Of a stretch of 64,000 nt of DNA, positions 645 to 34,745 are shown one piece after another. This DNA comes from Cupriavidus oxalaticus (GTDB lineage Bacteria; Pseudomonadota; Gammaproteobacteria; Burkholderiales; Burkholderiaceae): assembly GCF_004768545.1 (NCBI RefSeq), contig NZ_CP038634.1, positions 1,798,001 through 1,862,000 on the forward strand, given 5' to 3'. The notes beneath the pieces are model-generated. The model was given only the letters and a program-made list of their open reading frames with translations, did not search any database and was not told the DNA's origin. A program made the position numbers and the translations under genes. Position 1 is the first letter of the stretch; each line of letters opens with the position of its first letter.

Positions 645-1115
645 TCAGCCCTGGCGCTGCGCGTGCAGCGCTTCGGCGCGCGCCTTGACATCCCTTGCCA
701 CCTGGTCGAAGCCCTGTTTTACCCAGGCGCCGTGTTCGCGCATGATGGTTTCGGCGTTCAGGCCCAGGAACAGGTCGGTGGTGAAGTAGTAGGTGCGGGC
801 GGGTGCGATTGCTTCTATGTACTGGTCGCGGCGGGCGGCGTCCTTGTTTGCGTCGGTGGGGCGTTGCTCCCACGACAGCAGGCGTTCCGGTTCCCATGCC
901 ACGAGGTACTCATTGACCGGGATGATCTGGTCGGTGCCCGGGATGCGGACTTGCATGTGGACCATGTCGCCAAGCTTCGCAGTGGTTTCCAGGCCGGGGC
1001 AGAAGGTGTTCCATTCCGCGTAGCGGGGGAAGTCGGTCAGGACTTCCCATACCAGGGAAGCGGGGGCTTCGATTTCCACGGTGATTGAGGTGACCAGATT
1101 TTCTGGCTTGGCCAT
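645..1115 (-). CDS. SRPBCC (START-like) family protein, 156 aa
   Basis: This encodes a small alpha/beta protein of the SRPBCC/polyketide-cyclase type, which forms a deep hydrophobic ligand pocket. The N-terminal pattern (I-T-V-E-I-E-A-P-A-S-L-V-W-E-V-L-T-D-F-P-R-Y-A-E-W-N) is the family signature near residues 8-33. The start at 1115 is chosen because AAGGAGACA lies just upstream; a longer frame to 1382 has no ribosome site and non-coding-like composition. Family members bind or transform hydrophobic aromatics and lipids, so binding of a steroid or degradation intermediate is plausible, but the substrate is not known. A predicted operator lies 80 bp upstream at 1195-1210. Confidence 0.8.
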   Translation of the reverse strand: MAKPENLVTSITVEIEAPASLVWEVLTDFPRYAEWNTFCPGLETTAKLGDMVHMQVRIPGTDQIIPVNEYLVAWEPERLLSWEQRPTDANKDAARRDQYIEAIAPARTYYFTTDLFLGLNAETIMREHGAWVKQGFDQVARDVKARAEALHAQRQG

Positions 1116-1194
1116 TCTGTTGTCTCCTTTCATTTCTTTGTTTGGGAATCCAACACTAGGGCTGGGCTGTGCGGGGCGCATACCCTGAATGGAC

Positions 1195-1378: not shown

Positions 1379-2518
1379 TCACCCCATCCCCACCACACTA
1401 GACAACAGCATCTTCACCAACACCGCCTGCCTTGTCGCCCCGGTCTTGGCAAAGATCCCCCGCAGGTGCGCGCGTACCGTGTTCTTCTTCACGCCGAGCC
1501 TGACGGCTGCTTCATCCAGCGTCAGGCCATCGACCATCAGCAAGGCCAGCTCGATCTCCGTTGGCGTCAGGTGGAACAGCTTGCGCAGGCTGGCGTGCGT
1601 GTTGCGCGGCGACCCGGCCGGGTCGCGGATGAATACCGCGACCGCGGGGCGGCGGGCCTTGTCTTCGGTGCGGTAGCTGAGGGGAATGGGCCGCACCAGC
1701 ACGCTCAGCGGCGTGGCCGCCGCGGGGCGGCTGAGCAGCGTGACTTCGCTGCGCGAGGTGGCCAGTGCGTGGGCTTGCGCGGCGTCTTCGAGGATCTTGC
1801 GGAAGCGGCGGTTTTCCACCGGGCAGTGTGCGTGCAGCGTGCCGCCGGACAGATGGAGGCCGTCGCGCTCTTGCAGCAGGCGCCTGGCGACGTCGTTGCT
1901 GCGGATGGCCTTGCCGTGTTCGTCGAGGATGATGGTGCCGACCAGCAGCCGGTCCACGGCTTCCGCGTACAGGGCGCGCTCGGATTGCAGCAGGTCGAGC
2001 GCGGCATGCAGGTCGACCGCGCGCTTCAGGTGCGGCAGCAGGCCTTGCAGCAGCGCCCTCTCGGTGGCGCCGAAATCCTGGCCGGCCTCGCCGCGGCTGA
2101 TGAACAGCGCGCATTCCACGCCGTCGGCGGTGACGAGGTTGGCGGCGAGGATATAGCGCAGGTCCAGCGGCGCGAGGTACTGGGTATAGAACGGGTGGGC
2201 CAGCCACCCGGCTTCGCCGAACAGTTCATCGGCGCTGAAGAGGCGGTCGGGATGGAGGTCGAGGAAGGGGCACAGCGCGTAGTACTGCTCGCTGTACGAG
2301 GGTTCGCCGGGCAGGTGCGGGCCGTAGGCGGAGGCGTTGACGATCAGGCCAAGGCGGTCGGTGGCGGGGTGGCGCAGCACCAGCGTGACGAAGACGGCCT
2401 CGAGGCGCTGGCGCACGGTTTCGAGGAAGCCGGCCCAGGGGACGGCTTCGGTGGGACCCTGGTAGAGCTGGGCGAGCAGGGCGCTGAGTTCGGCGGCCTG
2501 CAGGGAATGTGGCAGCAT
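1379..2518 (-). CDS. LuxR-type transcriptional regulator 1 (TeiR/TesR-like)
   Basis: A 379-residue regulator with a C-terminal LuxR-type helix-turn-helix in the last 65 residues (L-T-P-T-E-I-E-L-A-L-L-M ... T-V-R-A-H-L-R-G-I-F-A-K-T-G). The N-terminal part starts with the Y-Q-G-P-x-E-x-V-P-W motif that all three LuxR proteins of this window share. Length and layout fit TeiR/TesR, the LuxR-type activator of steroid genes in Comamonas testosteroni. The start at 2518 was set by aligning the N-termini of the paralogues; the longer frame to 2602 would translate a palindromic repeat. An operator and a minus-strand TACGAT (2659-2654) lie upstream, so it may control itself or be controlled by a paralogue. 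The effector is unknown. Confidence 0.85.
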   Translation of the reverse strand: MLPHSLQAAELSALLAQLYQGPTEAVPWAGFLETVRQRLEAVFVTLVLRHPATDRLGLIVNASAYGPHLPGEPSYSEQYYALCPFLDLHPDRLFSADELFGEAGWLAHPFYTQYLAPLDLRYILAANLVTADGVECALFISRGEAGQDFGATERALLQGLLPHLKRAVDLHAALDLLQSERALYAEAVDRLLVGTIILDEHGKAIRSNDVARRLLQERDGLHLSGGTLHAHCPVENRRFRKILEDAAQAHALATSRSEVTLLSRPAAATPLSVLVRPIPLSYRTEDKARRPAVAVFIRDPAGSPRNTHASLRKLFHLTPTEIELALLMVDGLTLDEAAVRLGVKKNTVRAHLRGIFAKTGATRQAVLVKMLLSSVVGMG

Positions 2519-2548
2519 GGTCGAGGCGTGTGGGTTGATGGCCGGTGT

Positions 2549-2578
2549 GCTCCCTCTCCCGCAGGCGGGAGAGGGAGC
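2549..2578. repeat. GC-rich palindromic repeat (copy 1 of 4)
   Basis: Perfect inverted repeat with 14-bp arms (GCTCCCTCTCCCGC at 2549-2562 and its complement at 2565-2578) around a 2-base loop. Related hairpins occur at 16131, 25440 and 45914, all in intergenic DNA. It resembles REP-type elements and could act as a transcription barrier or mRNA-stabilising hairpin. Confidence 0.75.
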
Positions 2579-2680
2579 AAGCAGTCGGCCATGCAAGCGC
2601 ATTGGTCCCGGGTGGGCGCGGTCAGGATCTCCGGCAGAAACTCGGATTCGCCCATCGTACCCACCCCCACCACGGCCTCA

Positions 2681-2696
2681 TCGTCCATTCAGCCTA
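2681..2696 (-). promoter_or_regulatory. Predicted operator of LuxR gene 1, TAGGCT-GAAT-GGACGA
   Basis: Read on the minus strand, the right half is perfect and is followed by TGAG as at 52499; the left half has two changes. A minus-strand TACGAT at 2659-2654 begins 29.5 bp from the centre, the spacing seen at 307. The TAG at the left end is also the stop codon of cysNC. Confidence 0.55.
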
Positions 2697-4616
2697 AGTC
2701 CTATCCCGCAGCCACGCCACGATCCGTTCCGCCGCCTGCTCAGCCGTGTCGGCGGTGGTGTCGATGCGCAGCTCGGGCCGGTCGGGCGCCTCGTACGGCG
2801 AATCGATGCCGGTGAAGTTCTTCAGCTCGCCGCGCCGCGCCTTGCGGTACAGGCCCTTGGGGTCGCGCTGCTCGGCCACCGCCAGCGGCGTATCGATGAA
2901 GACCTCGACGAATTCGCCGTCGCCCGCCAGCGTGCGCGCCATCTCACGCTCGGAGCGGAACGGCGAGATGAACGACACCAGCACGATCAGCCCCGCATCG
3001 AGCATCAGCCTTGCCACTTCAGCCACGCGCCGGATGTTCTCGACGCGGTCGGCCTCGGAGAAGCCCAGGTCCTTGTTCAGCCCATGGCGCACGTTGTCGC
3101 CATCGAGCAGGTAGGTGTGGTGGCCGAGCGCATGCAGACGTTTTTCCACCAGGTTGGCGATGGTGGACTTGCCCGCGCCGGACAGCCCGGTGAACCAGAC
3201 GATGCGCGGTGACTGGTGCTTGAGCGCGGCGTGGGCGCGGCGGTCTACGTCGATCGCCTGCCAGTGGACGTTCTGCGCCCGGCGCAGCGCAAAATGCAGC
3301 ATGCCGGCGCCGACGGTGTTGTTGGTCAGGCGGTCGATGACGATGAAGCCGCCCAGTTCGCGGCTGCGCGCATAGGGGTCGAACGCCACCGGCCGGTCCA
3401 GGTGCAGGTTGCACACGCCGATCTCGTTGAGCTCCAGCGTGCGCGCGGCCAGGTGTTCGAGCGTGTTGACGTTGACCTTGTACTTGGGCTGCGCGACCGT
3501 CACGCCCACGGTGCGCGTGCCGAGCTTGAGCAGGTAGGGGCGGCCGGGCAGCATCGCATCCTCGCTCATCCACACCAGCGTGGCTTCGAACTGGTCGGCC
3601 ACCGCGGGCGGGTCTTCCGCGCACGCGAGCACATCGCCGCGGCTGATGTCGATCTCGTCGGCCAGCGTCAGCGTCACCGCCTGGCCGCGTACCGCATGCT
3701 CGCATTCGCCATTGGCGCCGACGATGGCGGCCACGCGGCTTTCGCGGCCCGAGGGCAGCGCGCGCACCCGGTCGCCGCGGCGGATTTCGCCGGCGCTGAC
3801 GGTGCCGGCGAAGCCGCGGAAATCCAGGTTGGGCCGGTTGACCCACTGCACCGGCAGCCGGAACGACTCGTCCTGCACGGGTGCGCTGTCGATCGGCACG
3901 GTTTCCAGGTGCTGCATCAGCGTCGGGCCCTGGTACCACGGCGTGCTGGCGCTGGGCGCGGTGATGTTGTCCCCACGCAGCGCGGACATCGGGATGCAGG
4001 TGATATCGGTCAGCCCGATCTGGCGTGCGAATTCGCGGTACTCGGTTTCGATGCGCGTATGGACCTCGCGCGAGTAGTCCACCATGTCGAGCTTGTTGAC
4101 CGCCAGCACCACGCGCCGGATGCCCAGCGTTGACACCAGGTAGCTGTGCCGGCGCGTCTGCGTCTGCACGCCGCGGCGCGCGTCCACCAGCAGGATGGCC
4201 AGGTCGGCGGTGGACGCGCCCGTGACCATGTTGCGGGTGTATTGCTCGTGCCCCGGCGTGTCGGCGACGATGAACTTGCGCTTGTCGGTGGCAAAGAAGC
4301 GGTAGGCCACGTCGATAGTGATGCCCTGTTCGCGTTCGGCGGCCAGGCCATCCACCAGCAGCGCGAAGTCGAGGTTGTCGCCCTGCGTGCCCATCTTCCT
4401 CGAATCGGCTTCGAGTTGCGCCAGCTGGTCCTCGAACAGCATCTTCGACTCATACAGCAGCCGGCCGATCAGCGTGCTCTTGCCGTCGTCGACGCTGCCG
4501 CAGGTGATGAAGCGCAGCAGGCTCTTGCCTTGCTGGGCATGGAGGTAGTGGGCGATCTCGCTCTGCGTGCCCGCGGGCTGCGCCATCGGCGGCGCGGTGT
4601 CGATCAGCGTTGCCAT
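2694..4616 (-). CDS. cysNC: Bifunctional sulfate adenylyltransferase GTPase subunit / APS kinase (CysN-CysC fusion)
   Basis: A 640-residue cytoplasmic fusion. The N-terminal half is the CysN GTPase, which with CysD makes adenosine 5'-phosphosulfate from ATP and sulfate: P-loop G-S-V-D-D-G-K-S at about 40-47, D-T-P-G-H-E at 119-124, N-K-L-D at 174-177. The C-terminal part is APS kinase (CysC): P-loop G-L-S-G-A-G-K-S near 477-484, followed by the [10 protein letters not shown] motif. The product is PAPS, the sulfate donor of sulfotransferases. The ATG overlaps the cysD stop (TGATG at 4618-4614), so the two are translationally coupled. The fused form is the one found in NodQ of rhizobia, which serves Nod-factor sulfation, and a sulfotransferase gene stands on the other side of the shared promoter region here. 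Confidence 0.93.
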
Positions 4617-5512
4617 CAGAAGTATCCCTCCTGCTTCTTCTTCTCCATCGAACCGGCCGAATCGCTGTCGATCAGCCGTCCCTGGCGCTCCGACGTGGTC
4701 GCCAGCAGCATTTCCTGGATGATGCCGCCGAGCGTGTCGGCCTCGCTCTCGATCGCGCCGGTGAGCGGGTAGCAGCCCAGCGTGCGGAAGCGGACCTTGC
4801 GCATCCGCGGCGTTTCGCCGGGGCGCAGCGGCAGGCGCTCGTCGTCGACCATGATCAGCGTGCCGTCGCGCTCGACTACCGGACGCTCCCTGGCAAAGTA
4901 GAGCGGCACGATCGGGATGTCGTTGAGGTAGATGTATTGCCAGATATCGAGCTCGGTCCAGTTCGACAGCGGAAACACGCGCAGGCTCTCGCCTTTGCGC
5001 TTGCGGGTGTTGTACTGGCGCCAGAGTTCGGGGCGCTGCATCTTCGGGTCCCAGCGGTGCTGGGCGGTGCGCACCGAGAACACCCGCTCCTTGGCGCGCG
5101 ACTTTTCCTCGTCGCGGCGCGCGCCGCCGAAAGCGGCGTCAAAGCCGTAGTGGTCCAGCGCCTGCTTCAGGCCCTGCGTTTTCCATACGTCGGTGTGGAC
5201 GGCCGAGCCGTGCTCGTGCGGGCTGATATTGCGCTCCACCCCTTCGGGGTTGATATGCACGCGCAGGTCCAGGCCGAGCCGGTCGGCGGTCTGGTCGCGG
5301 AACGCGATCATCTCGCGGAATTTCCACGTGGTATCGACATGCAGCAGCGGGAACGGCGGCCGCGCGGGATGGAAGGCCTTCATCGCAAGGTGCAGCATCA
5401 CGGCGCTGTCCTTGCCGATGGAATAGAGCATGACGGGGTTTTCGCATTCCGCCACCACCTCCCGCATGATGTGGATGCTCTCCGCCTCCAGTTGCTCCAG
5501 GTGGGTCAACAT
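4616..5512 (-). CDS. cysD: Sulfate adenylyltransferase subunit 2 (CysD)
   Basis: The 298-residue catalytic subunit of ATP sulfurylase, of the PAPS-reductase-like fold. It carries the pyrophosphate-binding S-I-G-K-D-S loop ([11 protein letters not shown]) near residues 30-38, the [15 protein letters not shown] motif, and the C-terminal [10 protein letters not shown] ending typical of CysD. The start at 5512 (AGGAGAACCCG upstream) gives the usual length; the frame extends to 5842, but that part is promoter DNA. It is first in a two-gene operon with cysNC. Its promoter region carries a perfect operator (5603-5618) with a TACCTT -10 at 5579-5574, so it appears to belong to the steroid regulon rather than to sulfate assimilation; no cysH, cysI or cysJ is nearby. 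Confidence 0.93.
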
Positions 5513-5600
5513 CGGGTTCTCCTCTTGGTTTGCCGGCCCATGCACGGATCTCGCGGTGGCCTGGCATGGCCACAAGGTAGCGAGCCGGGGCCCCGCGCCA

Positions 5601-5665
5601 CTTCGTCCGGGCGGACTAGGAAATCGCGGGCCGCGGCATGCAATTCCTAGTCCGCCCGGACGAGG
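5601..5665. promoter_or_regulatory. Divergent promoter region with two perfect operators in a large inverted repeat
   Basis: Two perfect copies of the palindrome, TCGTCC-GGGC-GGACTA at 5603-5618 and TAGTCC-GCCC-GGACGA at 5648-5663, face each other. They sit in a 20-bp inverted repeat (5603-5622 with 5644-5663). Towards cysD, TACCTT lies at 5579-5574; towards the DUF1214-like gene, TATCGT lies at 5687-5692. Both begin 31.5 bp from the centre of their operator. The symmetry suggests that one regulator activates both directions together. Confidence 0.7.
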
Positions 5666-5723
5666 AAGCGCTGGGCCTGCACTGGGTATCGTTGCTTCGC
5701 CGACGAACCACGGGAGCAGGCAG

Positions 5724-6833
5724 ATGGCGACCTCCGCCGAAGACCAATTGCTGAGCGGCCACACCTGGGCCGAGTTTTGCGAAGTGCTCAAGCGCAGCGG
5801 GCAGCAGATCCTGCGCCCCGAAGCGCCGACCGACGCGCTCACGCGCGCCGAGGGCTTCCGCTACCTGAGCCGCTTGCTGCGCATTGCGCTGGAGATGCAT
5901 GTGGAGTTCGCCGATCCGGCGTTTCCCGGCTTCTTCTCGCCGTCGCACGAGACCGCCAAGATCGGCGCTGACAATCCGGACAACCTGTACCGCTACGCGC
6001 GCCTGGACGGCAATGCGGCGTACCGCATCCGCGGCCGGCGCGGCACGGTGGCGTACCTCAGCTTCGGCACGCAGAAGGGTGGCTACGAAACCGATGGACG
6101 CATGGTCCAGACCGGCTTTATCGACAGCAGCCAGCTGGCGGTGGCGGCGGACGGCAGCTTCGAGATCGTCCTCGGCGCTCAGCCGCAGCAGGGCAATTGG
6201 GTGCGCATGGAGCCGGCCACCAATGCGCTGGTGGTGCGCCAGACCTTCCTCGACCGCAAGGCAGAGACCCCGGCCGAACTGCATATCGAACGCGTTGACG
6301 GCAACGGCAAGCCGCCCGCGCTGAGCGCCGAGCGCCTGCACGGCGGCCTGCTGCGCGCCGCCGGCTTTGTCGAAAGCACCGCGCGCATCTTTGCCGACTG
6401 GGCCAGGGGCTACGGTGGCCACGTCAACGCCCTGCCGCCCGCGGACCAGGCCGTGTGCCAGGCGGCGGGCGGCGATCCCAACATCTTCTATTACCACTCC
6501 TGCTGGCAGCTCGCGGATGACGAGGCGCTGGTGGTCGAGGTCGACCGGGTGCCGGACTGCGAGTTCTGGAACTTCCAGATCAACAACTACTGGATGGAGT
6601 CGCTCGACTACCGCTACCACGACATCTGCATCAACAAGCACGGCGCCCGGCTCGATGCCGGTGGCGGCGTCACCGTCATCCTCAGTGCGGGCGATCCGGG
6701 CCTGTCCAACTGGCTGGAGACCGCCGGCCATCGCAACGGCACCATGTGCTGGCGCTGGGTGGGCGCGGCGCAGCCGGCGCATCCGCGCACGCGCGTGGTC
6801 AAGCTCGCATCGCTCAGGGAGAACAACGCATGA
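5724..6833 (+). CDS. DUF1214-like protein of unknown function, 369 aa
   Basis: A soluble protein with no signal peptide. The C-terminal third has the pattern of DUF1214-type proteins: W-x-F-x-I-N-N-Y-W, a Y-H-D-I-C-I-N-K segment and a late [10 protein letters not shown] motif. No catalytic motif is recognised. The start at 5724 has a moderate ribosome site (GGGAGCAGGCAG). It is the first gene of an operon: its TGA overlaps the ATG of the sulfotransferase (ATGA at 6830-6833), so the two products are likely to act together. A role in presenting or modifying the sulfotransferase substrate is possible but is only inference from context. Confidence 0.75.
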
Positions 6834-7999
6834 AGGGCATCAACGTGAAGGGCCTGCTTGCGCAGGCGAGCGAGCAGGCCGGCGGCCTGGCCGACTTCGG
6901 CCCGGGCAACTACCGCGAGGCCCTGGACGTGCTGTCCGATTCGCTGGCACGCGAGGCCGGCCTCTCGCAGCAAGGCGAGCAACTGCTGCAAGCCAAGCTG
7001 CAGGCCCAGCTGGTGAACCGGCTGGTGATCCAGGACTACTGCAGGCGCCATCCGGGGATCCTGCAGGAGCGCGTGGAAGACCCGCTGGTCATCGTCGGGC
7101 TGCCGCGCACCGGCACCACGCTGCTGCAGCGCATGCTGGCTACCGACGCGCGCTTCTGCTCGGCGGCGTGGTGGGAAACCCGCTACCCCGCGCCGCTGCC
7201 CGGCGAGGACGTGCGCGATGCCAGCCGGCGCATTGCGCTGGCGCGCGACGAAGTGGCGCAGATGATCCGCTTCATCCCGGACATCCTCGCCATCCATCCG
7301 CTCGACGCCATGGCCGCCGACGAGGAATTCATGCTGATGGAGCATTCATTCCTGTGCGCAATGGACTCCTACGCCAACGTGCCCGGCTACACCGGCTGGC
7401 TGGCGTGCCAGGACCGCACCGAGGTCTACGACTACCTGAAGACCATGCTGCAGTTCCTTCAGTGGCAGAAGCGCCAGCGCGGCGAGGGGACCGCGCAGCG
7501 CTGGGTGCTGAAGACCCCGCAGCATTTGCATACGCTGGGAGTCCTGTTCCGGGTGTTCCCGGGCGCGCAGGTGGTGCTGACCCACCGCGATCCGGTCCAG
7601 ACCATCCCGTCGATGGCCAGCATGGCGCATACGTTGTGGAAGATGTACGCCGATGCGCCGGATCCGGTCGCGGTAGGCCGCCAATGGAGCGAACAGATGC
7701 GGCGCGGCACCGATCACGCCATGGCCGTGCGCGACGCCATGCCCGCCGGCCGCTTCCTCGACGTGCGTTTCGAGGATACGGTGCGCGATCCCTTCGGTGT
7801 GGCGCAGGCGGTCTATCGCTTCGCCGGCATGCCGCTGACCGAGGCCGCGCGCGCCGGCATGTGGGCATGGATGGAAAGCAATCCGCGCAACCGGCGCGCG
7901 GCGCACGCCTATACGCCCGAGCAGTTCGGGCTGAGCCAGGCACAGCTGGCACGCGATTTCGCCGGCTATCGCGCACGCCATGTGCTGAGCCGCGACTGA
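6830..7999 (+). CDS. PAPS-dependent sulfotransferase family protein
   Basis: A 389-residue cytoplasmic protein with the two PAPS-binding signatures of sulfotransferases: the 5'-phosphosulfate loop G-L-P-R-T-G-T-T-L-L-Q at residues 90-100 and the 3'-phosphate region V-L-T-H-R-D-P-V-Q at about 249-257, preceded by W-V-L-K-T-P-Q-H-L (225-233). It would transfer sulfate from PAPS to a hydroxyl or amine of a small acceptor, which the sequence does not identify. The start at 6830 is set by translational coupling to the upstream gene (ATGA). The neighbouring divergent cysD-cysNC genes make PAPS, and all share an operator pair with the steroid regulon, so a sterol, steroid or lipid acceptor is a reasonable hypothesis. 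Confidence 0.85.
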   Translation: MKGINVKGLLAQASEQAGGLADFGPGNYREALDVLSDSLAREAGLSQQGEQLLQAKLQAQLVNRLVIQDYCRRHPGILQERVEDPLVIVGLPRTGTTLLQRMLATDARFCSAAWWETRYPAPLPGEDVRDASRRIALARDEVAQMIRFIPDILAIHPLDAMAADEEFMLMEHSFLCAMDSYANVPGYTGWLACQDRTEVYDYLKTMLQFLQWQKRQRGEGTAQRWVLKTPQHLHTLGVLFRVFPGAQVVLTHRDPVQTIPSMASMAHTLWKMYADAPDPVAVGRQWSEQMRRGTDHAMAVRDAMPAGRFLDVRFEDTVRDPFGVAQAVYRFAGMPLTEAARAGMWAWMESNPRNRRAAHAYTPEQFGLSQAQLARDFAGYRARHVLSRD

Positions 8000-8028
8000 T
8001 ACCGAAAACACACCGAGGAGACATCCAC

Positions 8029-8820
8029 ATGCTGCTGAAAGACAAGATCGTGATCGTATCGGGCATCGGCCCCGGTCTGGGCATCAAGCTGGCGGTAGAG
8101 GCCGCGCGCGAGGGCGCCCGCGCCGTTGCCATCGCCGCGCGCACCGCCGCGAAGCTGGACGAGGCCCAGGCCCGCATCGATGCACTGGGCGCCGACTGTG
8201 AAGTGCTGAAGGTGGTGACCGACATCACCGACCGCGCCCAGTCCCGCCATCTCGCCAGCGAGACCGTGCGCCGCTTCGGCCGCATCGACGCGCTGGTCAA
8301 CAGCGCCTTCCAGCACGGCAATTTCCCCGAGCCGGTGGAAGCCGCCGACCTGGACGTCTGGCGCCAGGTGTTCGACACCAATGTCTTCGGCACCATGACG
8401 CTGACGCAGGAGGTGGCCGCGCTGATGAAGCCGCAGGGCGGCGGCGCCATCGTGATGATCAACACCCAGGCCACGCGCAAGCCGATGCCCGGCGAATCGG
8501 GCTACGCCGCGTCCAAGGGCGCGCTGGCGGTGGCGGTCAAGTACCTGGCGCGCGAGCTGGGGCCGCATGGCATCCGCGCCAACAGCATCTTCATGGGCTG
8601 GATGTGGGGCGCGCCGGTGCAGGGTTATGTGCGCCACGCCGCGGCCGAACAGGGGGTCGCCGAGGACGCTATCATCGCACCGGTGGCTTCCCAGATTGCG
8701 TTGGGCCGCATGCCGACGGACGACGACTGCGCGCGCGCGGCGCTGTTCCTGGTGTCGGACTACGCCCGTGCGATCACCGGGGCCTCGCTGGATGCCAACG
8801 GTGGCGACTTCATGCCCTGA
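8029..8820 (+). CDS. SDR-family oxidoreductase, 263 aa
   Basis: A classical short-chain dehydrogenase with an unusual nucleotide loop (V-S-G-I-G-P-G-L-G near residues 11-19 in place of the usual T-G-x3-G-I-G), the N-S-A-F-Q variant of the NNAG motif, and the catalytic Y-A-A-S-K near residue 160. Serine of the triad is replaced in the M-I-N-T-Q-A-T region by Thr or Asn, so activity cannot be assumed. The ribosome site GAGGAGACATCC precedes the ATG at 8029, 29 bp after the sulfotransferase. It belongs to the sulfotransferase operon. It may oxidise or reduce the hydroxyl group before or after sulfation; the substrate is unknown. Confidence 0.8.
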   Translation: MLLKDKIVIVSGIGPGLGIKLAVEAAREGARAVAIAARTAAKLDEAQARIDALGADCEVLKVVTDITDRAQSRHLASETVRRFGRIDALVNSAFQHGNFPEPVEAADLDVWRQVFDTNVFGTMTLTQEVAALMKPQGGGAIVMINTQATRKPMPGESGYAASKGALAVAVKYLARELGPHGIRANSIFMGWMWGAPVQGYVRHAAAEQGVAEDAIIAPVASQIALGRMPTDDDCARAALFLVSDYARAITGASLDANGGDFMP

Positions 8821-8853
8821 CCGGCCGGACCGACTGCTCTACTGCCAACTGCC

Positions 8854-9858
8854 ATGACCCGCTACTTTGCCTTCAACGGCGACGCCGACGGCCTGTGTGC
8901 CCTGCAGCAGCTGCGCCTGGCCCGTCGTTTGCACCCCGGCGATGCGGCGCTGGTCACCGGCGTCAAGCGCGATATCCGCCTGCTCGAGCGGATCGACGCC
9001 TGTGCCGGAGATACCGTGACGGCGCTGGACATCTCGCTCGAACAGAACCGCGACGGGCTGCTGCGGCTGCTCGCCGCCGGTGCGCAGGTGGACTACTTCG
9101 ACCACCACCACGCCGGCGAGCTGCCGTCGCATGCCGGTCTGCGCGCGCATATCGACGAAAGCGCGGCGGTCTGCACCAGCATCCTGGTCGACCGCCACCT
9201 CGACGGGCGCCACCGGCGCTGGGCGATCACCGCCGCCTTTGGCGACAACCTCGGCGACGTGGCGCGCGCGATGGCGGCGCAGGCGCGGCTGGACGCGCGC
9301 GAAACCCTGATGCTGGAACGGCTCGGCACCTGCCTGAACTACAACGCGTATGGCGAGTGCGTGGCGGACCTGCATTGCGATCCCGCCGAGCTGGCGCAGC
9401 ACATGCTGCCGTTCGCCGACCCGCTGGAGTTCGCCGCGCAGTGCGCCACCTACGCGCTGCTGTGCGATGGCTACGAGGACGACATGGCCCAGGCGCGCCG
9501 CCTGTCGCCCGTGCATGAAGTCCCCGGCGCCGCGCTGCTGGTGCTGCCGGACGCACCGTGGGCACGGCGCGCGATCGGTGTGCTGGCCAACGAGCTGGTG
9601 CGCGGACGTCCCGGCGATGCGATCGGCCTGCTGTCGCCCAAATCCGGCGGCGGCTTTGCGGTCAGCGTGCGCGTGCCGGCGCACAGCATCACCGGTGCGG
9701 CCGACTTCTGCCGCGCCTTCGAGACCGGAGGCGGCCGGCGCCTGGCCGGGGGCATCAACCACCTGCCCGACGCCGAAGTGGAGCGCTTCACGCGCAGCTT
9801 TGCCGACTGCTTCGGCGCGCCGTTCAACCAGGCTGGCCCGGCGGGACAAACTCCGTAA
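8854..9858 (+). CDS. DHH-family phosphoesterase, 334 aa
   Basis: DHH-superfamily metal-dependent phosphoesterase: motif F-N-G-D-A-D-G-L near residues 6-13, the D-H-H-H motif near residue 87 (Y-F-D-H-H-H), a G-D-N-L-G-D segment, and a C-terminal DHHA1-like G-G-G-R-R-L-A-G-G loop in which Arg stands where His is usual. Relatives such as NrnA hydrolyse nano-RNA and 3'-phosphoadenosine 5'-phosphate (PAP), the by-product of sulfotransferases, so PAP removal is a possible role in this operon. Against this, related DHH genes are common in beta-proteobacteria outside such clusters, and no clear ribosome site precedes the ATG. Its 3' end overlaps the converging RibBA-like gene by 35 bp. Confidence 0.75.
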   Translation: MTRYFAFNGDADGLCALQQLRLARRLHPGDAALVTGVKRDIRLLERIDACAGDTVTALDISLEQNRDGLLRLLAAGAQVDYFDHHHAGELPSHAGLRAHIDESAAVCTSILVDRHLDGRHRRWAITAAFGDNLGDVARAMAAQARLDARETLMLERLGTCLNYNAYGECVADLHCDPAELAQHMLPFADPLEFAAQCATYALLCDGYEDDMAQARRLSPVHEVPGAALLVLPDAPWARRAIGVLANELVRGRPGDAIGLLSPKSGGGFAVSVRVPAHSITGAADFCRAFETGGGRRLAGGINHLPDAEVERFTRSFADCFGAPFNQAGPAGQTP

Positions 9859-10945
9859 CCTCCAGGTCGAAGCCGGTGACCGCGCGGTAAGGCACCGGAT
9901 GGCTGAGCAGGCGCAGCTTGTGCGCGCCCACATCGCGCAGGATCTGCGCCCCGACCCCCAGCGCGCGCTGCGCGAAGGCCGGCGCCGGCGCGGCGGCAGG
10001 CGGCGCGGCCAGCCGCGCCAGCCGCTGCTGCGGCGATTCGCGCTCGTCCAGCAGCACCAGCACGCCGCAGCCCTCGGCGCCGATGCGGGCGAGCGAGCGT
10101 TCCAGGTTCCAGGCGGGCTGAGAGGTGGACTGCGCCGGCGTGCCGAAGGCCAGCACGTCGCGCTGCATTTCCACCGCCTGCACGCGCGTCAGTACCGGCC
10201 TGGACGGATCGGGCTCGCCCAGCACCAATGCCAGGTGCAGCGCGTCGGCAGGGGCGTCGTGGTAGGCGTGCACGGTGAAGCGCCCGAACGGCGTATCCAG
10301 CCCGGTCGAGCAGGTACGGCGCAGCGCGCCTTCGGTCAGCAGCCGGTGGTGGATCAGCCCGCTGATCGAGACCGCGGCTAACCCGTGGCGTTGCGCAAAC
10401 GCCAGCAGGCCGGGGCCGCGCAGCAGGTCGCCGTCGTCATCAAGCAGCATCGCATAGGCGCCGGCGGCGACACGCCCGGCCAGCCGCGGCAGGTCGGAGC
10501 AGGCCTCGGCAAAGCCGGCGCGGCGCAGCACGCCGTCGGCCTGCGCTACCACCGGAAAGATGTGTCCCGGCTGGACCAGGTCTGCCGGTTGGGCGCGCGC
10601 CGCTGCCGCCACGCGCAGCGTCAGCGCCCGGTCCGCCGCGGAAATGCCGGTGCTGACGCCGGTGGCCGCTTCGATCGACACCGTGTAGCGCTCGCGCTGG
10701 CGCTGGCTGGCGGCCATCGGCGGCAACTGCAGCCGGTCGCGGCGCGCCTCGGTGATGGCCATGCAGACCAGGCCGCGCGCCTCGGCGGCCATGAAGTTGA
10801 CGTCGGCCTCGGTGGTGCGTTCGGCGGTAACCAGCACGCAGCCGGTGGCCTCGGTGGTCTCGTCCTCGATCACCACCACGCGCTGGCCAGCGGCCAGTGC
10901 GGCAAGCACGTCGGCCATCGGCGGCAAGGCGTTGGCCGTGCTCAT
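9824..10945 (-). CDS. RibBA-like protein with degenerate active sites in both domains
   Basis: A 373-residue protein with the layout of RibBA: an N-terminal 3,4-dihydroxy-2-butanone-4-phosphate synthase domain (to about residue 205) and a C-terminal GTP-cyclohydrolase-II-like domain. The fold signatures remain (Y-T-V-S-I-E-A-A-T-G-V-S-T-G; Q-P-G-H-I-F-P-V; L-G-V-G-A-Q-I-L). The acidic loop normally reading D-D-E-x-R-E-N-E-G-D is here E-D-E-T-T-E-A-T-G-C, the usual G-G-H-T-E-A is A-G-F-A-E-A, and the GCHII zinc cysteines are missing (R-V-Q-A-V-E-M instead of R-V-H-S-E-C). Both activities are therefore doubtful. The ATG overlaps the hydrolase stop (ATGA at 10945-10942), so it is coupled to that gene. 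Confidence 0.8.
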   Translation of the reverse strand: MSTANALPPMADVLAALAAGQRVVVIEDETTEATGCVLVTAERTTEADVNFMAAEARGLVCMAITEARRDRLQLPPMAASQRQRERYTVSIEAATGVSTGISAADRALTLRVAAAARAQPADLVQPGHIFPVVAQADGVLRRAGFAEACSDLPRLAGRVAAGAYAMLLDDDGDLLRGPGLLAFAQRHGLAAVSISGLIHHRLLTEGALRRTCSTGLDTPFGRFTVHAYHDAPADALHLALVLGEPDPSRPVLTRVQAVEMQRDVLAFGTPAQSTSQPAWNLERSLARIGAEGCGVLVLLDERESPQQRLARLAAPPAAAPAPAFAQRALGVGAQILRDVGAHKLRLLSHPVPYRAVTGFDLEVTEFVPPGQPG

Positions 10946-11895
10946 GCTGCCTCCTGCCGGCTGCTGCCGAACGCGTGGCGCAGCGCCGCTGCGGCCGCAT
11001 CCAGTGCGTCGCTGGCGGCATCGATCACGCCCTGCATGCTGATGAAGCCATGGAACTGCCCCGGCCAGCGGCGCACGGTGGCGCTGCTGGCCGCGCGCTG
11101 CAGCGCTTCGCCGTAGCCTTCGCCCTGGTCGCGCAGCGGGTCGTACTCGGCGGTGATGATGGTGGCCGGTGGCAAGCCATGCAGGTCGCGCTGGCGCAGC
11201 GGGCTGGCGCGCACGTCCGCGGCATCGGCGCGATTGCCGAGATACTGGGCGCGATACCAGTCCAGTTCCGCCGCGCTCAGGAAGTAGCCGGTTGCGCATT
11301 CGCGGTAGCTGGCGCTGCCGGTCGCGGCATCGGTGCAGTCCAGGTAAGGGTAGAGCAGCAGTTGGTGCCGCAGGGCAATGCCGCTGCCGCGCACCTGCTG
11401 GCAGGCTACGGCGGCGAGGTTGCCACCGGCGCTGTCGCCCGCCACGGCGATCCGCGCCGGATCCGCACCCAGTTGCGCCGCATGCGCAGCCGCCCATCGC
11501 ACCGCCGCGACCGCGTCTTCCGCGGCGGCCGGGAAGCGCGCTTCCGGCGCGAGCCGGTAGTCGACCGACAGCACCAGCGCGCCGCTGCGGCGCGCCAGGC
11601 TGCGGCAGATGTTGTCGTGCGAATCGAGGCCGCACAGCACGAAGCCGCCGCCGTGGAAATAGATCACCAGCGGCAGCGCGGCGCTGTCGTCCGGCCGGTA
11701 CAGGCGCGCCCGCAGCGGGCCGGCCGCACCGTCCAGGATCAGGTCGTGCTGCGCGGCGATGGCATCGCCGGGTGCGAATCCGGGCATGGCCGCCAGCGCG
11801 GCACGGTAGTCGGCGGCGCGCAGCGTGGAGAAGTCGGGGCTGGGCAAGGCGGCCATGGCATCAAGCATGGCGCGGGCCTGGGGGTCGAGCGGCAT
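10942..11895 (-). CDS. Alpha/beta hydrolase of the hormone-sensitive-lipase family
   Basis: A 317-residue esterase/lipase-type enzyme. It shows the oxyanion-hole motif H-G-G-G-F (near residue 75), the nucleophile elbow G-D-S-A-G-G (near 147), an acidic residue in Y-D-P-L-R-D and the catalytic His in F-H-G-F near the C-terminus. The start at 11895 is preceded by GGGAGACACC; an upstream in-frame ATG at 11925 has no ribosome site. It would cleave a carboxylic ester of a bulky alcohol; a steroid ester is plausible from context. It is not the meta-cleavage hydrolase HsaD/TesD, whose nucleophile elbow and length differ. It is the second gene of a three-gene minus-strand operon. Confidence 0.87.
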   Translation of the reverse strand: MPLDPQARAMLDAMAALPSPDFSTLRAADYRAALAAMPGFAPGDAIAAQHDLILDGAAGPLRARLYRPDDSAALPLVIYFHGGGFVLCGLDSHDNICRSLARRSGALVLSVDYRLAPEARFPAAAEDAVAAVRWAAAHAAQLGADPARIAVAGDSAGGNLAAVACQQVRGSGIALRHQLLLYPYLDCTDAATGSASYRECATGYFLSAAELDWYRAQYLGNRADAADVRASPLRQRDLHGLPPATIITAEYDPLRDQGEGYGEALQRAASSATVRRWPGQFHGFISMQGVIDAASDALDAAAAALRHAFGSSRQEAA

Positions 11896-12750: not shown

Positions 12751-13204
12751 GGTGATGGTTCTCCGTAGGAAAAAGACGTGGAAAAAGGCGGGGATTGCCG
12801 CCCATGCACGACTTGTAGCGGCGCCGCGGCGGCGCGGCATCGTCTGTTTGGGTGGGGCGGCGCCACCTGGCGTCATGCGGATTCACATGGCGTCACATGG
12901 CACCCCATGACGCCTAGGGGTTTGCCCGCAGCCGGACGGCCATGGGTTGGTCCTTAGTCTGTTTGGAGTATGTGTTTGCGCCGCCGGCGCGTGAGGATTG
13001 GCCTGTCCCTCGGGACTAGTCCGGCATGCGTGCCATGCCGGCGTGGACTAGGGCAAACCATGAAGGCGGGGGGCAAGCCGCGACCCCTGCGCCGTCCCTA
13101 TAATCGGGGCACAAAAAAAGGGCCACAGAGCCCGCACAGGAAGGCCAGCCGACCGGCACGTCCGGTGCGCTGCGCACGCCACAATGGAGACAGAGGAAAT
13201 GCTG
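12751..13204. promoter_or_regulatory. Divergent control region of the SDR operon and LuxR gene 2
   Basis: No gene is seen here. The region contains several operator-like palindromes: TAGTCT-GTTT-GGAGTA at 12955-12970, CTGTCC-CTCG-GGACTA at 13003-13018, and a wider inverted repeat from CTAGTCC (13016) to GGACTAG (13051) with CATGCCGG-type arms. A weaker half-site, AGACGA on the minus strand, lies at 12845-12840. A consensus -10, TATAAT, lies at 13099-13104. The clustering suggests stronger or more complex control than at single-site promoters. Confidence 0.55.
13099..13104 (+). promoter_or_regulatory. TATAAT -10 element of LuxR gene 2
   Basis: Perfect -10 hexamer in the context CCCTATAATC, which recurs before LuxR gene 3 (30626-30631). 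No good -35 is visible 17 bp upstream, so an activator may be needed. Confidence 0.5.
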
Positions 13205-14386
13205 ATGGAGGCGAGCCACAATCAGGCAGCCGCGCACCTGTTCGCGCAGACGACGGTGTCGCTGTCTGACTTCAGCGCGTTGCTGGGCAATATCTACCAG
13301 GGACCGATGGAGCAGGTGCCATGGGGCAAGGCGCTGGAGCAGATCCGCAGGCAGCTCGACGCCAACTACGTCACGCTGATCCTGCGTTCGCCGGCCACGG
13401 ACCGGCGCGGGCTCATGATCAATGCCTCGGAGCATGGCGGTTCGACCCTGCCGGGGGAGACCTCGTACAACAACTACTACTACGCGCTCGATCCCTTCAT
13501 CGGCCTGCCGTCGGACCGGGTGGTGACCATCGACGAGCATCTAGGGCCGGGCGTCTGGTGCCAGAGCGAGATCTACCTGCAGTTCCTCAAGGACGTCGGC
13601 ATCCGCTACATCCTGGGCGCGGACCTGCGTACCGACGACGGCGTCGAATGCCGCTTCCGTGTCTGCCGCAAGCATGAGGGCCGCGATTTCTCGGCCGCGG
13701 ACAAGGCGCTGTGCACCGCGCTGCTGCCGCACCTGAAGCGCGCGGTGGACCTGCATTCGCGCCTCGACGTGGTGGAGTCGGAGCGCACCGTCTATGCCAG
13801 CGCCATCGACCGCATGCTGGTCGGCATGGTGATCCTGGACGAGACCGGCGCCATCATCAAGACCAACGCCGCGGCCGACGAGATCCTGGGCGCCAAGGAC
13901 GGCATCCGGATTGCCAAGGGCGGGCTGGACGTCGAGTACGGCCAGGAGAACCGCAAGTTCCAGCGCCTGCTGCGCCAGGCAATGATGGGGCACCTGGGCA
14001 CCGCGCCGGCGGTGATGGAGGCGATGTCGATCACGCGTCCGTCCGGCAGCGCCAGGCTGGGCGTGCTGATCCGCACCATCCCGCTCAGCGAGTGGTCGGA
14101 GGACAACCGCAAGCGCCCGGCCTGCGTGGTCTTCATCCGCGATCCGGAGCGGCGCTCGCAGGCCTCGCACGATGTGGTGCGCCAGCTGTTCGACTTCACG
14201 CCGGCGGAGACGCAACTGGCGCTGCAGCTGGCCAACGGGCTCACGCTCGACGAAGCCGCCGATGAACTCGGCATCAGCAAGAACACGGCACGCGCGCACC
14301 TGCGCGCGATCTTCTCCAAGACCGGCGTGACCCGGCAGGCCACGCTGGTGCGCATGCTGCTGAGCAGCGTGATTTCGCTGGGCTGA
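13205..14386 (+). CDS. LuxR-type transcriptional regulator 2 (TeiR/TesR-like)
   Basis: A regulator of about 393 residues, closely related to LuxR 3 throughout and more distantly to LuxR 1. The N-terminal region has the shared Y-Q-G-P-M-E-Q-V-P-W motif; the last 60 residues are a LuxR-type DNA-binding domain (F-T-P-A-E-T-Q-L-A-L-Q ... T-A-R-A-H-L-R-A-I-F-S-K-T-G-V-T-R-Q). The start is uncertain: ATG codons at 13184, 13199 and 13205 are in frame, and GAGGA at 13193-13197 is best spaced for 13205. The family parallel is TeiR/TesR, the activator of steroid genes in Comamonas testosteroni. It lies centrally, divergent from the SDR-hydrolase operon and upstream of the hsaA-kstD operon. The effector-binding region resembles no domain whose ligand I can name. 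Confidence 0.87.
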   Translation: MEASHNQAAAHLFAQTTVSLSDFSALLGNIYQGPMEQVPWGKALEQIRRQLDANYVTLILRSPATDRRGLMINASEHGGSTLPGETSYNNYYYALDPFIGLPSDRVVTIDEHLGPGVWCQSEIYLQFLKDVGIRYILGADLRTDDGVECRFRVCRKHEGRDFSAADKALCTALLPHLKRAVDLHSRLDVVESERTVYASAIDRMLVGMVILDETGAIIKTNAAADEILGAKDGIRIAKGGLDVEYGQENRKFQRLLRQAMMGHLGTAPAVMEAMSITRPSGSARLGVLIRTIPLSEWSEDNRKRPACVVFIRDPERRSQASHDVVRQLFDFTPAETQLALQLANGLTLDEAADELGISKNTARAHLRAIFSKTGVTRQATLVRMLLSSVISLG

Positions 14387-16156: not shown

Positions 16157-16204
16157 GGCCGGGGGAGAGGGCCGGCGCATCCACGAAGTGCCGCAGGAAA
16201 CAGC

Positions 16205-16220
16205 TAGTCCCATCAGACGA
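16205..16220 (+). promoter_or_regulatory. Predicted operator of the hsaA-kstD operon, TAGTCC-CATC-AGACGA
   Basis: Left half perfect, right half with one change, followed by TGG. It is 66 bp upstream of the GTG start at 16287. The -10 at the standard distance is poor (AAACAT, 16243-16248), which suits an activator-dependent promoter. Confidence 0.65.
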
Positions 16221-16286
16221 TGGCGCCCCGCCCGCCCGATGCAAACATCAACGCCAGCCACAAGACAAAGCGAAAAGGAGACCGCG

Positions 16287-30699: not shown

Positions 30700-31887
30700 A
30701 TGTTGATGGCGACCGTTGAGGCGCAGGAAATGGCGTCGCCTTTGCTTGCGCAGTCAGGCCTGAGCGTCACGCAGTTCGGCGCGCTGCTGGCCGCGGTCTA
30801 TGAAGGGCCGATGGAACCCGTGCCCTGGGGCCGCGCGCTCGAAATGCTGCGCAAGCAACTCGATGCCAGCTATGTGAGCTTTATCCTGCGCTCGCCCGCC
30901 AGCGACCGCAGCGGCCTGGCGGTGCATGCATCGGCGCACGGCACCTCGCTGGAGGCAGAGGCTTCCTACAACAGCTACTACTACGCGATCGATCCGTTCA
31001 TCAACCTGCCCACCGACCGCGCGGTGACGGTCGACGAGGCGCTGGGCGCGGGCAACTGGTGCCGCAGCGAGATCTACCGCCAGTTCCTGCAGCCGCTAGG
31101 CATCCGCTACCTGCTGGGCGCGGACATTCGTACCGAGGACGGTGTCGAGTGCCGCCTGCGCATCTGCCGGCAGGACGACACGCAGGATTTCTCCGAAGTG
31201 GACAAGGCGGCCTGTGGCGCCATCCTGCCGCACCTGAAGCGCGCGATCCGGCTGCATTCCCGGCTGGACGTGGTCGAATCCGAGCGCTCGCTCTATGCGG
31301 GGGCGATCGACCGCATGCTGGTGGGCATGGTGATCCTCGACGCCTCCGGCACGATCCTCAAGAAGAATCCCGAGGCCGACGAGATCCTGGCGGAGAACGA
31401 CGGCATCCGCCTCAACGGGAACATCTTCGAGATTGCCTACGCCCAGGAGAGCCGCAAGTTCCAGTACCTGCTGCGCCGCGCGCAGATGGGACACCACGGC
31501 AGCGCGCCGGCACTGGCCGAAGCCATGTCCATCACCCGCCCGTCCGGGCGCGGCAAGCTCGGCGTGCTGATCCGCACCATCCCGCTCAGCGAATGGTCCG
31601 AAGAAAACCGGCACCGGCCAGCGTGCGCGGTCTTTATCCGCGATCCCGAGCGCAAGTCGCGCGCCTCGCACGAGGTGGTGCGCAAGCTGTTCGACCTCAC
31701 CCCCGCCGAAACGGCGCTGGCACTGGTGCTTGCCGACGGCATGACCCTTGACGAAGCCGCGGAGGCATTGGGTACCAGCAAGAACACGGTACGCGCCCAC
31801 CTGCGCGCGATCTTCTCCAAGACCGGGGTCACGCGGCAGGCCACGCTGGTGCGCATGCTGCTGAGCAGTGTCGTGACGCTCGGCTGA
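30700..31887 (+). CDS. LuxR-type transcriptional regulator 3 (TeiR/TesR-like)
   Basis: A 395-residue regulator, the closest relative of LuxR 2 in the window. Shared stretches run along the protein: the Y-E-G-P-M-E-P-V-P-W opening, S-Y-N-S-Y-Y-Y-A-I-D-P-F-I, L-G-A-D-I-R-T-E-D-G-V-E-C-R, I-P-L-S-E-W-S-E-E-N. The C-terminal LuxR helix-turn-helix is T-V-R-A-H-L-R-A-I-F-S-K-T-G-V-T-R-Q. The middle part may hold a PAS-like ligand pocket, but I cannot identify it firmly. It lies upstream of the EthD gene and the hsaC-ipd operon, both preceded by operators. TATAAT at 30626 and GGAGACAAGGT define the start. Confidence 0.87.
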   Translation: MLMATVEAQEMASPLLAQSGLSVTQFGALLAAVYEGPMEPVPWGRALEMLRKQLDASYVSFILRSPASDRSGLAVHASAHGTSLEAEASYNSYYYAIDPFINLPTDRAVTVDEALGAGNWCRSEIYRQFLQPLGIRYLLGADIRTEDGVECRLRICRQDDTQDFSEVDKAACGAILPHLKRAIRLHSRLDVVESERSLYAGAIDRMLVGMVILDASGTILKKNPEADEILAENDGIRLNGNIFEIAYAQESRKFQYLLRRAQMGHHGSAPALAEAMSITRPSGRGKLGVLIRTIPLSEWSEENRHRPACAVFIRDPERKSRASHEVVRKLFDLTPAETALALVLADGMTLDEAAEALGTSKNTVRAHLRAIFSKTGVTRQATLVRMLLSSVVTLG

Positions 31888-31910
31888 GCGCCAGCGTGTC
31901 GTCCTCCCTC

Positions 31911-31926
31911 TAGTCCGACTGGAGGA
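31911..31926 (+). promoter_or_regulatory. Predicted operator of the EthD-domain gene, TAGTCC-GACT-GGAGGA
   Basis: Left half perfect, right half with one change; followed by TGAT. TAGCAT at 31949-31954 starts 30.5 bp from the centre. It lies 23 bp after LuxR gene 3 and 166 bp before the ATG at 32093. Confidence 0.65.
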
Positions 31927-32092
31927 TGATCGCCGCCATCCACGCGCCTAGCATGCACAGGACCAGCGGGCGCGGCAGCCGGATGGCACGTCATGCGGAC
32001 GCAGCGAGGCATGGGTTCCGCAATCAATCCGGTTCCGCGCACGCTTCAACCTGTCCGGCCACGGCCGGCAACTTTACCAGGGAGCGTGGAGC

Positions 32093-32809
32093 ATGGAAAA
32101 AGTCATCTATATCGTCTGGCGCGATCCGCGGAACGAGCCGGCGGAGTTCGCGCGCCGGTTGCGCACGACGCTGGCCGACAAGCTGCTGGCGCTGGGCGCG
32201 CGCGGATTGCAGGTCAACGTGGCGGATGACGCCGTGCTGCCTGCAGCGGGCCTGCGGCAGACGAACACCCGGCCGCAAATGGAAGGGCTGGTCTCGCTCT
32301 GGATCGACAGCGCCGTCGACCGCCTGCGCCAGCCGTTCGACCAGGCGGTCGAGGCCGCGGTCGGCCGCATGGCAGCGTACCTCGTCACGGAGTCCCAGCC
32401 GATCCGCAATACGCGTTTCCCCGTCGCGACGGGGGAGCGCACCCCCGGCTTCGCGCAACTGGCCTTCCTGACGCGCCCGCCGCGGCTCACGCCGCAGGCG
32501 TGGCTGGATACCTGGCACAACCATCACACCCAGGTGGCGGTCGAGACCCAGGACAACTTCCTGTACGTGCAGAACGTGGTGGTGCGGCCGCTCAGCTACG
32601 CCGCGCCACCTTGCGACGCGATCGTCGAGGAATGCTTCCCCGACGCGGCAATGACCGACCCGCAGGCGTTCTTCGACGCCGTCGGCGATGAAGAGAAGTT
32701 CCAGCGCAACCTGCAGGCCATGATGGCCAGCTGCCAGCGCTTCATCGACTTCGACAGGATCGACGTGGTCCCCACCAGCCAGTACGTCGTCCGCCCCGCC
32801 AGCGCCTGA
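32093..32809 (+). CDS. EthD-domain-like protein, 238 aa
   Basis: A protein of the dimeric alpha-beta-barrel type with an EthD-like segment: L-T-P-Q-A-W-L-D-T-W-H-N-H-H-T-Q-V-A, starting near residue 139, is the typical substrate-side helix with conserved W-H. It then ends in a F-F-D-A-V-G-D-E-E-K-F motif. EthD proteins are small accessory proteins or enzymes of oxidative catabolism, some acting as decarboxylases or dehydratases; the exact role here is not known. GGGAGCGTGGAGC precedes the ATG. It is a single-gene unit between two operators, directly upstream of the hsaC promoter. Confidence 0.75.
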   Translation: MEKVIYIVWRDPRNEPAEFARRLRTTLADKLLALGARGLQVNVADDAVLPAAGLRQTNTRPQMEGLVSLWIDSAVDRLRQPFDQAVEAAVGRMAAYLVTESQPIRNTRFPVATGERTPGFAQLAFLTRPPRLTPQAWLDTWHNHHTQVAVETQDNFLYVQNVVVRPLSYAAPPCDAIVEECFPDAAMTDPQAFFDAVGDEEKFQRNLQAMMASCQRFIDFDRIDVVPTSQYVVRPASA

Positions 32810-32827
32810 ATCCGGCCCCGGATCGGC

Positions 32828-34710: not shown

Positions 34711-34745
34711 ACCGCCGTCTGAACCCGCCAACCCAAGGAGCGACC

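Follow-up and report, generated by a model that had tools for sequence, protein, structure and literature searches.

A candidate PAPS-dependent sulfation module in a steroid-degradation regulon of Cupriavidus oxalaticus

Why should genes for the synthesis of 3'-phosphoadenosine 5'-phosphosulfate (PAPS) and for a PAPS-dependent sulfotransferase lie among genes for steroid degradation? The question is raised by a stretch of 64,000 nucleotides of Cupriavidus oxalaticus (contig NZ_CP038634.1 of assembly GCF_004768545.1, positions 1,798,001 to 1,862,000; hereafter the window), in which the genes for CysD and a CysN-CysC fusion diverge from those for a DUF1214 protein, the sulfotransferase (STF), a short-chain dehydrogenase/reductase (SDR) and a DHH-family phosphoesterase (Table 1). 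The source genome comprises 7.97 Mb in 7 contigs, and the closest relatives of its STF are found in Cupriavidus. We propose that these genes probably constitute a dedicated PAPS-dependent sulfation module belonging to a steroid-degradation regulon. Two parts of this proposal can be graded separately: it is very likely that sulfation is wired to steroid degradation, and it seems probable that the acceptor is derived from a steroid.

PAPS synthesis, sulfotransfer and their conservation

The CysN-CysC protein matches the bifunctional CysN/APS kinase model (APS, adenosine 5'-phosphosulfate) over its full length, and the genome-wide search returned one strong APS kinase, which is this fusion; a second match (C3:1022039) is weak, at 23.3 bits just above the cut-off, and was taken as a different kinase. 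Likewise, the STF of the window is the only PF00685/PF13469 sulfotransferase found in the source genome. Its PRTGTT and THRxP...S regions, which are read as PAPS-binding loops, are invariant across 14 aligned STFs; with its profile score (Table 1), this places it among the PAPS-dependent sulfotransferases. A second, housekeeping cysD adjoins cysH on contig 2. The housekeeping CysH carries ECC and CEPC cysteines (the CxPC type), a pattern that marks APS reductases; because of this pattern, assimilation should not need PAPS. Since one sulfotransferase and one strong APS kinase were found and CysH is of the APS type, PAPS is apparently made for sulfotransfer and not for assimilation. This had already been argued in an earlier annotation made from the letters of the window (the sequence-only reading), whose gene calls and coordinates at 2694-9858 also hold. 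The extent that it gave to the module was too narrow, because the neighbouring LuxR and SRPBCC genes (1379-2602 and 645-1193) belong to it as well.

A species-genome collection yielded 195 STF relatives that were confirmed, and the loci of the best 80 were used for comparison; they represent ten genera and were fetched with flanks of at most 10 kb. Homologues of DUF1214 and STF were present in all 80, those of CysNC, CysD and SDR in 78 each, of SRPBCC in 70 and of LuxR1 in 62, and the DHH homologue was found in 63 loci at half coverage and in 64 at any coverage, the lowest identities across the module genes being 44 to 78%. CysNC, CysD, DUF1214 and STF were kept together in 77 of the 80 loci, and some genes are missing because the loci are short contigs (for example, L036 and L080). 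Sixty-four loci from Cupriavidus, Ralstonia, Paraburkholderia, Burkholderia, Collimonas, Pandoraea and Pseudomonas form group A; the other 16, from Comamonas, some Pseudomonas, Halopseudomonas and Aromatoleum, form group B, in which the gene order differs and an EthD gene and SnoaL genes belong to the unit.

A further regularity concerns the DHH protein. The protein of the window itself has no Pfam match; among 36 aligned members including it, searched at E<=1, DHHA1 was matched in 28 and DHH in 12, weakly in both cases (best 8e-6 and 0.004), although neither the GDADG motif nor the DHH motif varies within this alignment. Searches of PDB sequences with the protein and with its profile gave chance-level matches only (RecJ, E 0.73). 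The DHH gene is present in 64 of the 80 loci, a CysQ-like gene is present in 15 others and no locus has both. One or the other is therefore found in 79 loci, the exception (L080) being a 9.9 kb contig that begins inside CysNC. In group B, from which DHH is absent, the CysQ-like gene adjoins CysD in 15 of the 16 loci, and the one CysQ-like gene tested matched TIGR01331 with 292.7 bits against a cut-off of 228.8. Because DHH and CysQ replace each other across the loci, the DHH protein probably removes the by-product 3'-phosphoadenosine 5'-phosphate (pAp).

These data bear on the simplest alternative, that the locus is a second sulfate-assimilation set (an extra CysDN with CysC) beside unrelated neighbours. 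CysD and CysN do serve assimilation too; nevertheless, this explanation is highly improbable, as housekeeping cysD and cysH genes with an APS-type CysH are present elsewhere, the PAPS genes accompany STF and DUF1214 in the 77 loci mentioned above, and a DHH or CysQ gene is nearly always at hand. Plain sulfate assimilation was rejected as the role of the module on account of the APS-type CysH and the separate housekeeping cysD.

Shared operators and the genomic link to steroid degradation

The CoA-transferase pair of the window is IpdAB-like by its best PDB matches, one protein being IpdB-like against chains of 6con and 6co6 and its neighbour matching their alpha chains; we take both structures to be steroid IpdAB. 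HsaC-like and KstD-like proteins of the window match NCBIfam steroid models strongly, yet below the cut-offs. The IpdB-like protein (34707-35546) was used as the steroid marker. For the survey of module genomes, 50 of the 80 loci were hand-picked for genus spread and 48 genomes were searched (L025 and L075 were left out); 47 of these encode IpdB at 56-95% identity. In 298 genomes of one Pseudomonas genus, including the STF-bearing genome at the centre of the sample, IpdB was present in 52 and STF in 14, and all 14 were among the 52 (P ~5e-12, ignoring kinship); five of the 14 were already in the earlier set. STF and IpdB share a contig in seven of the 14, at about 14 to 60 kb in six and at 1.2 Mb in one. 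The order-wide sample of 399 genomes, including that of the window, contained four genomes with IpdB (at least 50% identity) and two with a close STF (at least 60%), both of which also have IpdB and one of which is the window's own; four other genomes had no IpdB match and only distant STFs, at 32-36% identity. Because no more than 4 to 6 candidates per genome were scored in these last two samples, some genes may have been missed.

The association is much less evident in the immediate surroundings of the module. Steroid genes were found within the flanks of 21 of the 80 loci, 13 being flanked by homologues of the window's KstD-, LLM- or acyl-CoA-dehydrogenase-like genes and eight others by a Rieske gene belonging to a cluster from which one member was tested and matched KshA_C; adjacency to steroid genes was therefore rejected as a general rule. 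Homologous clusters lacking steroid genes, which the sequence-only reading would have counted against itself, are thus common as far as adjacency is concerned, but not at the level of genomes.

A shared operator provides the second line of evidence. Between CysD and DUF1214 lie two inverted copies of CTAGTCCGCCCGGAC (5605-5619 and 5647-5661), and CTAGTCCGNNCGGAC has just two exact occurrences in the genome of 7.97 Mb, each of them in this gap, as the sequence-only reading had noticed for the window. The form CTAGTCCNNNNGGAC occurs exactly five times in the genome, four of them inside the window (binomial P ~2e-8), and with at most one mismatch 55 times, 11 of them inside the window (binomial P ~8e-13), both values being calculated for an assumed genome of 7 Mb; the 11 matches represent nine distinct places because two palindromes were counted on both strands. 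The reversed-pattern control gave 641 genome matches at the same tolerance, compared with 55, so that the motif is rare in the genome as a whole and what stands out is solely where it lies. As an 18-base palindrome, it was found at five places in the window with at most two mismatches (mean 0.07, largest 1, in 30 resampled sequences) and at ten places with at most three (mean 1.0, largest 3), some of which fall inside genes. Operator-like sites were accepted at up to four mismatches in the window and up to three in the scan of the STF loci. Beyond the sites in Table 1, palindromes with at most three mismatches start at 306, 10043 and 55697, and the site at 16204-16221 lies 16 bases inside the longest open reading frame, whose true start may be later. 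The operator of the window is common to the module and to steroid catabolic genes.

Other genomes gave a mixed picture. At least one site with at most three mismatches stands directly before DUF1214 in 60 of the 64 group A loci (all except L027, L060, L067 and L069), and at least two stand there in 45. Thirty-six genomes were searched for the exact form TAGTCCNNNNGGACGA, and 30 of them were counted (G024, G025, G028, G033 and G039 were left out and G000 was read separately). Among the 144 sites in these 30 genomes, none of which is the source, 49 fall in the module locus (27 genomes), meaning here the whole fetched locus of about 21 kb or less and hence more than the intergenic gap, and 49 lie within 60 kb of IpdB (18 genomes). 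Genomes with an exact site within 60 kb of IpdB include 2/2 Cupriavidus, 1/1 Ralstonia, 1/1 Pandoraea, 1/3 Paraburkholderia and 13/14 Pseudomonas, with 0/1 in Collimonas and 0/8 in Burkholderia. In P. laurylsulfativorans (G034), all eight sites are in the module locus or near IpdB, on two different contigs. Exact operators also cluster on contigs without an IpdB match in two genomes (five on contig C3 of G026 and four on contig C24 of G030), and these clusters are perhaps further parts of the regulon. Together, the shared operators and the co-occurrence with IpdB support the earlier proposal that the module is wired into a steroid regulon.

The regulator is likely to be of the LuxR type. A LuxR1 homologue accompanies most loci, at a distance of several kb from the module in some of them. 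Two more LuxR-type regulators of the window (13184-14386 and 30700-31887) have the same C-terminal GerE domain, and the three proteins are candidates for one operator.

Table 1. Features of the module, its operators and related sites in the window
Feature	Position	Strand	Basis
SRPBCC/polyketide-cyclase-like protein	645-1193	-	PF10604, 41.7 bits; homologue (at least 44% identity) in 70/80 loci
LuxR1, LuxR-type regulator, likely module regulator	1379-2602	-	GerE domain; homologue (at least 52% identity) in 62/80 fetched loci
CysN-CysC fusion (ATP sulfurylase large subunit and APS kinase)	2694-4616	-	bifunctional model, 1089 bits (cut-off 715)
CysD, ATP sulfurylase small subunit	4616-5512	-	573 bits (cut-off 413)
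Operator copy 1, reading TTCGTCCGGGCGGACTAG on the + strand	5602-5619	-	window palindrome scan
Operator copy 2, CTAGTCCGCCCGGACGAG	5647-5664	+	window palindrome scan
DUF1214 protein	5724-6833	+	30.5 bits (cut-off 25); solved relative 6ans, 650 bits
PAPS-dependent sulfotransferase STF (Sulfotransfer_3)	6830-7999	+	144.5 bits (cut-off 27)
Short-chain dehydrogenase/reductase SDR	8029-8820	+	homologue (at least 52% identity) in 78/80 loci
DHH-family phosphoesterase, proposed pAp phosphatase	8854-9858	+	homologue in 64/80 loci; motifs GDADG, DHH
Operator-like site between SDR2 and the second LuxR gene	13002-13019		also in most Cupriavidus loci
Operator-like site, start of acyl-CoA dehydrogenase/KstD-like genes	16204-16221	+	also in Cupriavidus loci
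Operator-like site upstream of the EthD gene	31910-31927	+	palindrome scan
EthD-domain protein between two operator-like sites	32093-32809	+	homologues in module loci
Operator-like site upstream of HsaC-like and IpdAB-like genes	32827-32844	+	palindrome scan
Operator-like site upstream of the Rieske/KshA-like gene (matched from 52570)	52498-52515	+	palindrome scan

Several neighbouring genes deserve mention. The EthD protein of the window is 70% identical to a gene product in the Collimonas module locus (L028), 31-44% identical to the EthD proteins encoded between STF and SRPBCC in group B, and 57% identical to one encoded outside the module in L082. A TauE/SafE-family transporter, assigned by a Pfam match in L028, is found beside or inside the module in three genera (L027 13846-14724, L028 2081-2866 and L082 7422-8207) and is possibly concerned with sulfate or sulfite transport. 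A candidate RibB/RibA-like gene (9824-10957) is convergent with the DHH gene and is kept in 11 Cupriavidus loci (L011-L021); a flavin-supply gene inside a steroid island would fit the flavoenzymes of the latter. In the steroid region, the MMPL transporter (48786-51230) matches sterol-sensing and Patched domains.

More distant STF sets are found on plasmids of Tsukamurella (with DUF1214, SDR, STF, CysD and CysNC), Paraburkholderia sprentiae (with DUF1214, STF, CysQ, CysD and CysNC), sphingomonads and Mycolicibacterium, in the last of which STF and SDR were matched and DUF1214 was not. On the Novosphingobium plasmid pNL2, a distant STF has a KstD-like gene (L096 6589-8271; 46% identity to that of the window) at a distance of about 2 kb, and the P. 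sprentiae module (L094 4345-5484) is near a gene annotated as 'ecdysteroid 22-kinase family' and an acyl-CoA reductase gene.

Several observations weigh against a module tied to steroid degradation. Within the STF family, DHH and CysQ have in essence been exchanged only once: on a quick tree of 87 STFs, whose outer branches are long, two changes are required, and the second is the CysQ of the distant P. sprentiae module; the exchange is therefore suggestive and provides no independent replication. In group B, only one of the 16 loci (L085) has even a three-mismatch site before DUF1214. Operator totals were no higher than those of the reversed-pattern controls, the location alone being striking, and 46 of the 144 exact sites lie neither in a module locus nor within 60 kb of IpdB. 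All eight Burkholderia genomes (G014-G021) were without an exact non-module site within 60 kb of IpdB, as were four of the 22 other genomes (two Paraburkholderia, the Collimonas and one Pseudomonas). Paraburkholderia solitsugae (L024, genome G010) is the only module genome of the 48 without an IpdB match, and no KstD match was obtained near the distant STF sets in the Tsukamurella and P. sprentiae stretches. Finally, 38 of the 52 IpdB-bearing Pseudomonas genomes showed no STF, and two of the four IpdB genomes in the order sample had no STF match of any kind. Because so many IpdB genomes are without STF, the sulfation step is accessory, and the module is, as judged from these genomes, an accessory trait of predicted steroid degraders.

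Some of these points would suit a different acceptor. The module could be steroid-induced and yet sulfate a cell lipid or an envelope component, for protection against membrane-active steroids or for signalling of their presence. The Burkholderia genomes, with an exact operator at the module and none found near IpdB, fit this explanation, as does the accessory distribution of the module among IpdB-bearing genomes; moreover, the closest solved relatives of STF by sequence (2zq5 and 2z6v) are both named only 'putative uncharacterized protein', which leaves the class of acceptor open. However, SDR, DUF1214 and SRPBCC, with SnoaL and EthD in some lineages, would look more like small-molecule conversion than envelope assembly, and in the Pseudomonas sample a close STF was found only alongside IpdB. 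We therefore regard a lipid or envelope acceptor as unlikely.

A possible course and purpose of sulfation

For sulfation of a steroid, we envisage the following course. CysD and the CysN domain would make APS, which the CysC domain would phosphorylate to PAPS. STF would then transfer the sulfonate to a hydrophobic acceptor at a hydroxyl (or enol), this acceptor most likely being a steroid or an intermediate derived from one, and the DHH protein, or CysQ in other lineages, would destroy the inhibitory by-product pAp. SDR, DUF1214 and SRPBCC, together with SnoaL and EthD in some relatives, may prepare the acceptor or convert it further. We infer that a LuxR-type protein, probably the adjacent LuxR1, controls both arms through CTAGTCC-N4-GGAC operators, which are also present at the steroid ring-degradation genes.

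The purpose of such a reaction can be understood in two ways. On the one hand, sulfation may be a terminal conjugation for the detoxification or export of steroids or of dead-end metabolites; this is a version of the proposal made here and its chances overlap with those given above. A precedent is BT_0416 of Bacteroides, a cholesterol-sulfating enzyme whose gene adjoins putative PAPS genes and is induced by cholesterol (PMC9417993). In addition, a single sulfatase regular expression had no match in the open reading frames of at least 250 amino acids in the window, as would be expected if the product were not reused. Conjugation, however, needs only PAPS and STF, whereas SDR, DUF1214 and usually SRPBCC (in some lineages SnoaL or EthD) travel along, and because they do so further chemical steps are suggested. 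Terminal conjugation is thus possible, although we lean away from it.

On the other hand, sulfation may serve catabolic activation, in which case STF would convert a recalcitrant hydroxyl (or enol) of the steroid into sulfate as a leaving group, the set of SDR, SnoaL, SRPBCC, EthD and DUF1214 proteins would then remove the sulfate by elimination, and the built-in regeneration of PAPS and disposal of pAp would sustain the flux. A real metabolic step is favoured by the proteins that accompany STF and by the PAPS cycle that the module contains; even so, activation in place of conjugation is put forward here tentatively and we consider it rather doubtful.

Whatever its purpose, our results suggest a sulfation step linked to steroid use that is apparently undescribed for steroid degradation, cholesterol sulfation being known in Bacteroides. 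They provide a testable role for genes shared by predicted steroid degraders of ten genera, give DUF1214 a context and predict a pAp phosphatase. They also connect steroid degradation in soil with the sulfation of steroids by Bacteroides of the gut. Should sulfation of steroids take place in the environment, part of what is measured as their removal could consist of hidden conjugates, and activation, if true, would represent a chemical strategy new to the bacterial breakdown of steroids that has spread as an accessory module.

Comparison with known systems

In rhizobia, NodP (CysD) and NodQ (a CysN-CysC fusion) provide PAPS for one sulfotransferase, NodH, and CysD and CysN-CysC of the window likewise stand alongside a single sulfotransferase. 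The acceptor of the rhizobial system, however, is a lipochitooligosaccharide; a search for NodA in 14 genomes gave no match, but its control was silent in all 14 as well, which makes the search uninformative. The designation 'NodPQ/NodH-like' used in the sequence-only reading is an analogy only. Sulfation as a means of making a hydroxyl into a leaving group is the principle of the CurM/Ols-type sulfotransferase with its thioesterase. The CurM/Ols-type enzyme is a polyketide synthase domain, and the similarity of STF to it is weak (profile match to 4gox, E 3e-5, 25.9 bits).

A mycobacterial relative may also exist. The structure 2zq5 is presumably that of Rv3529c, which would make Rv3529c a relative of STF; on the same assumption Rv3529c, Rv3530c and Rv3531c might be orthologous to STF, SDR and DUF1214, so that the present results may bear on this part of the mycobacterial cholesterol set. 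These three genes are listed among the cholesterol-catabolism genes of M. tuberculosis, and Rv3531c is predicted to be specifically required on cholesterol (PMC6429209). In the available text of that source they appear in a row as a conserved hypothetical protein, a possible oxidoreductase and a hypothetical protein, and adjacent PAPS genes are not mentioned there.

Within the steroid-degrading proteobacteria, C. necator ATCC 17699 and P. resinovorans NRBC106553 are recorded in PMC4810484 as growing on testosterone and not on cholate or cholesterol. In the openly licensed literature, as covered by titles, the beginnings of abstracts and term counts, no sulfotransferase of a steroid-degrading proteobacterium was found. 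The statement in the sequence-only reading that no bacterial steroid pathway with such a step has been described needs a qualifier, as BT_0416 sulfates cholesterol, although no degradation pathway is described for Bacteroides in the available portion of PMC9417993. The BT_0411-BT_0416 set is not assigned there to a steroid-degradation regulon, as is proposed here for the module of the window. The two nevertheless resemble each other: in Bacteroides, where BT_0412 and BT_0416 are upregulated by cholesterol (PMC9417993), putative PAPS genes stand beside a PAPS sulfotransferase, as PAPS genes do in the window.

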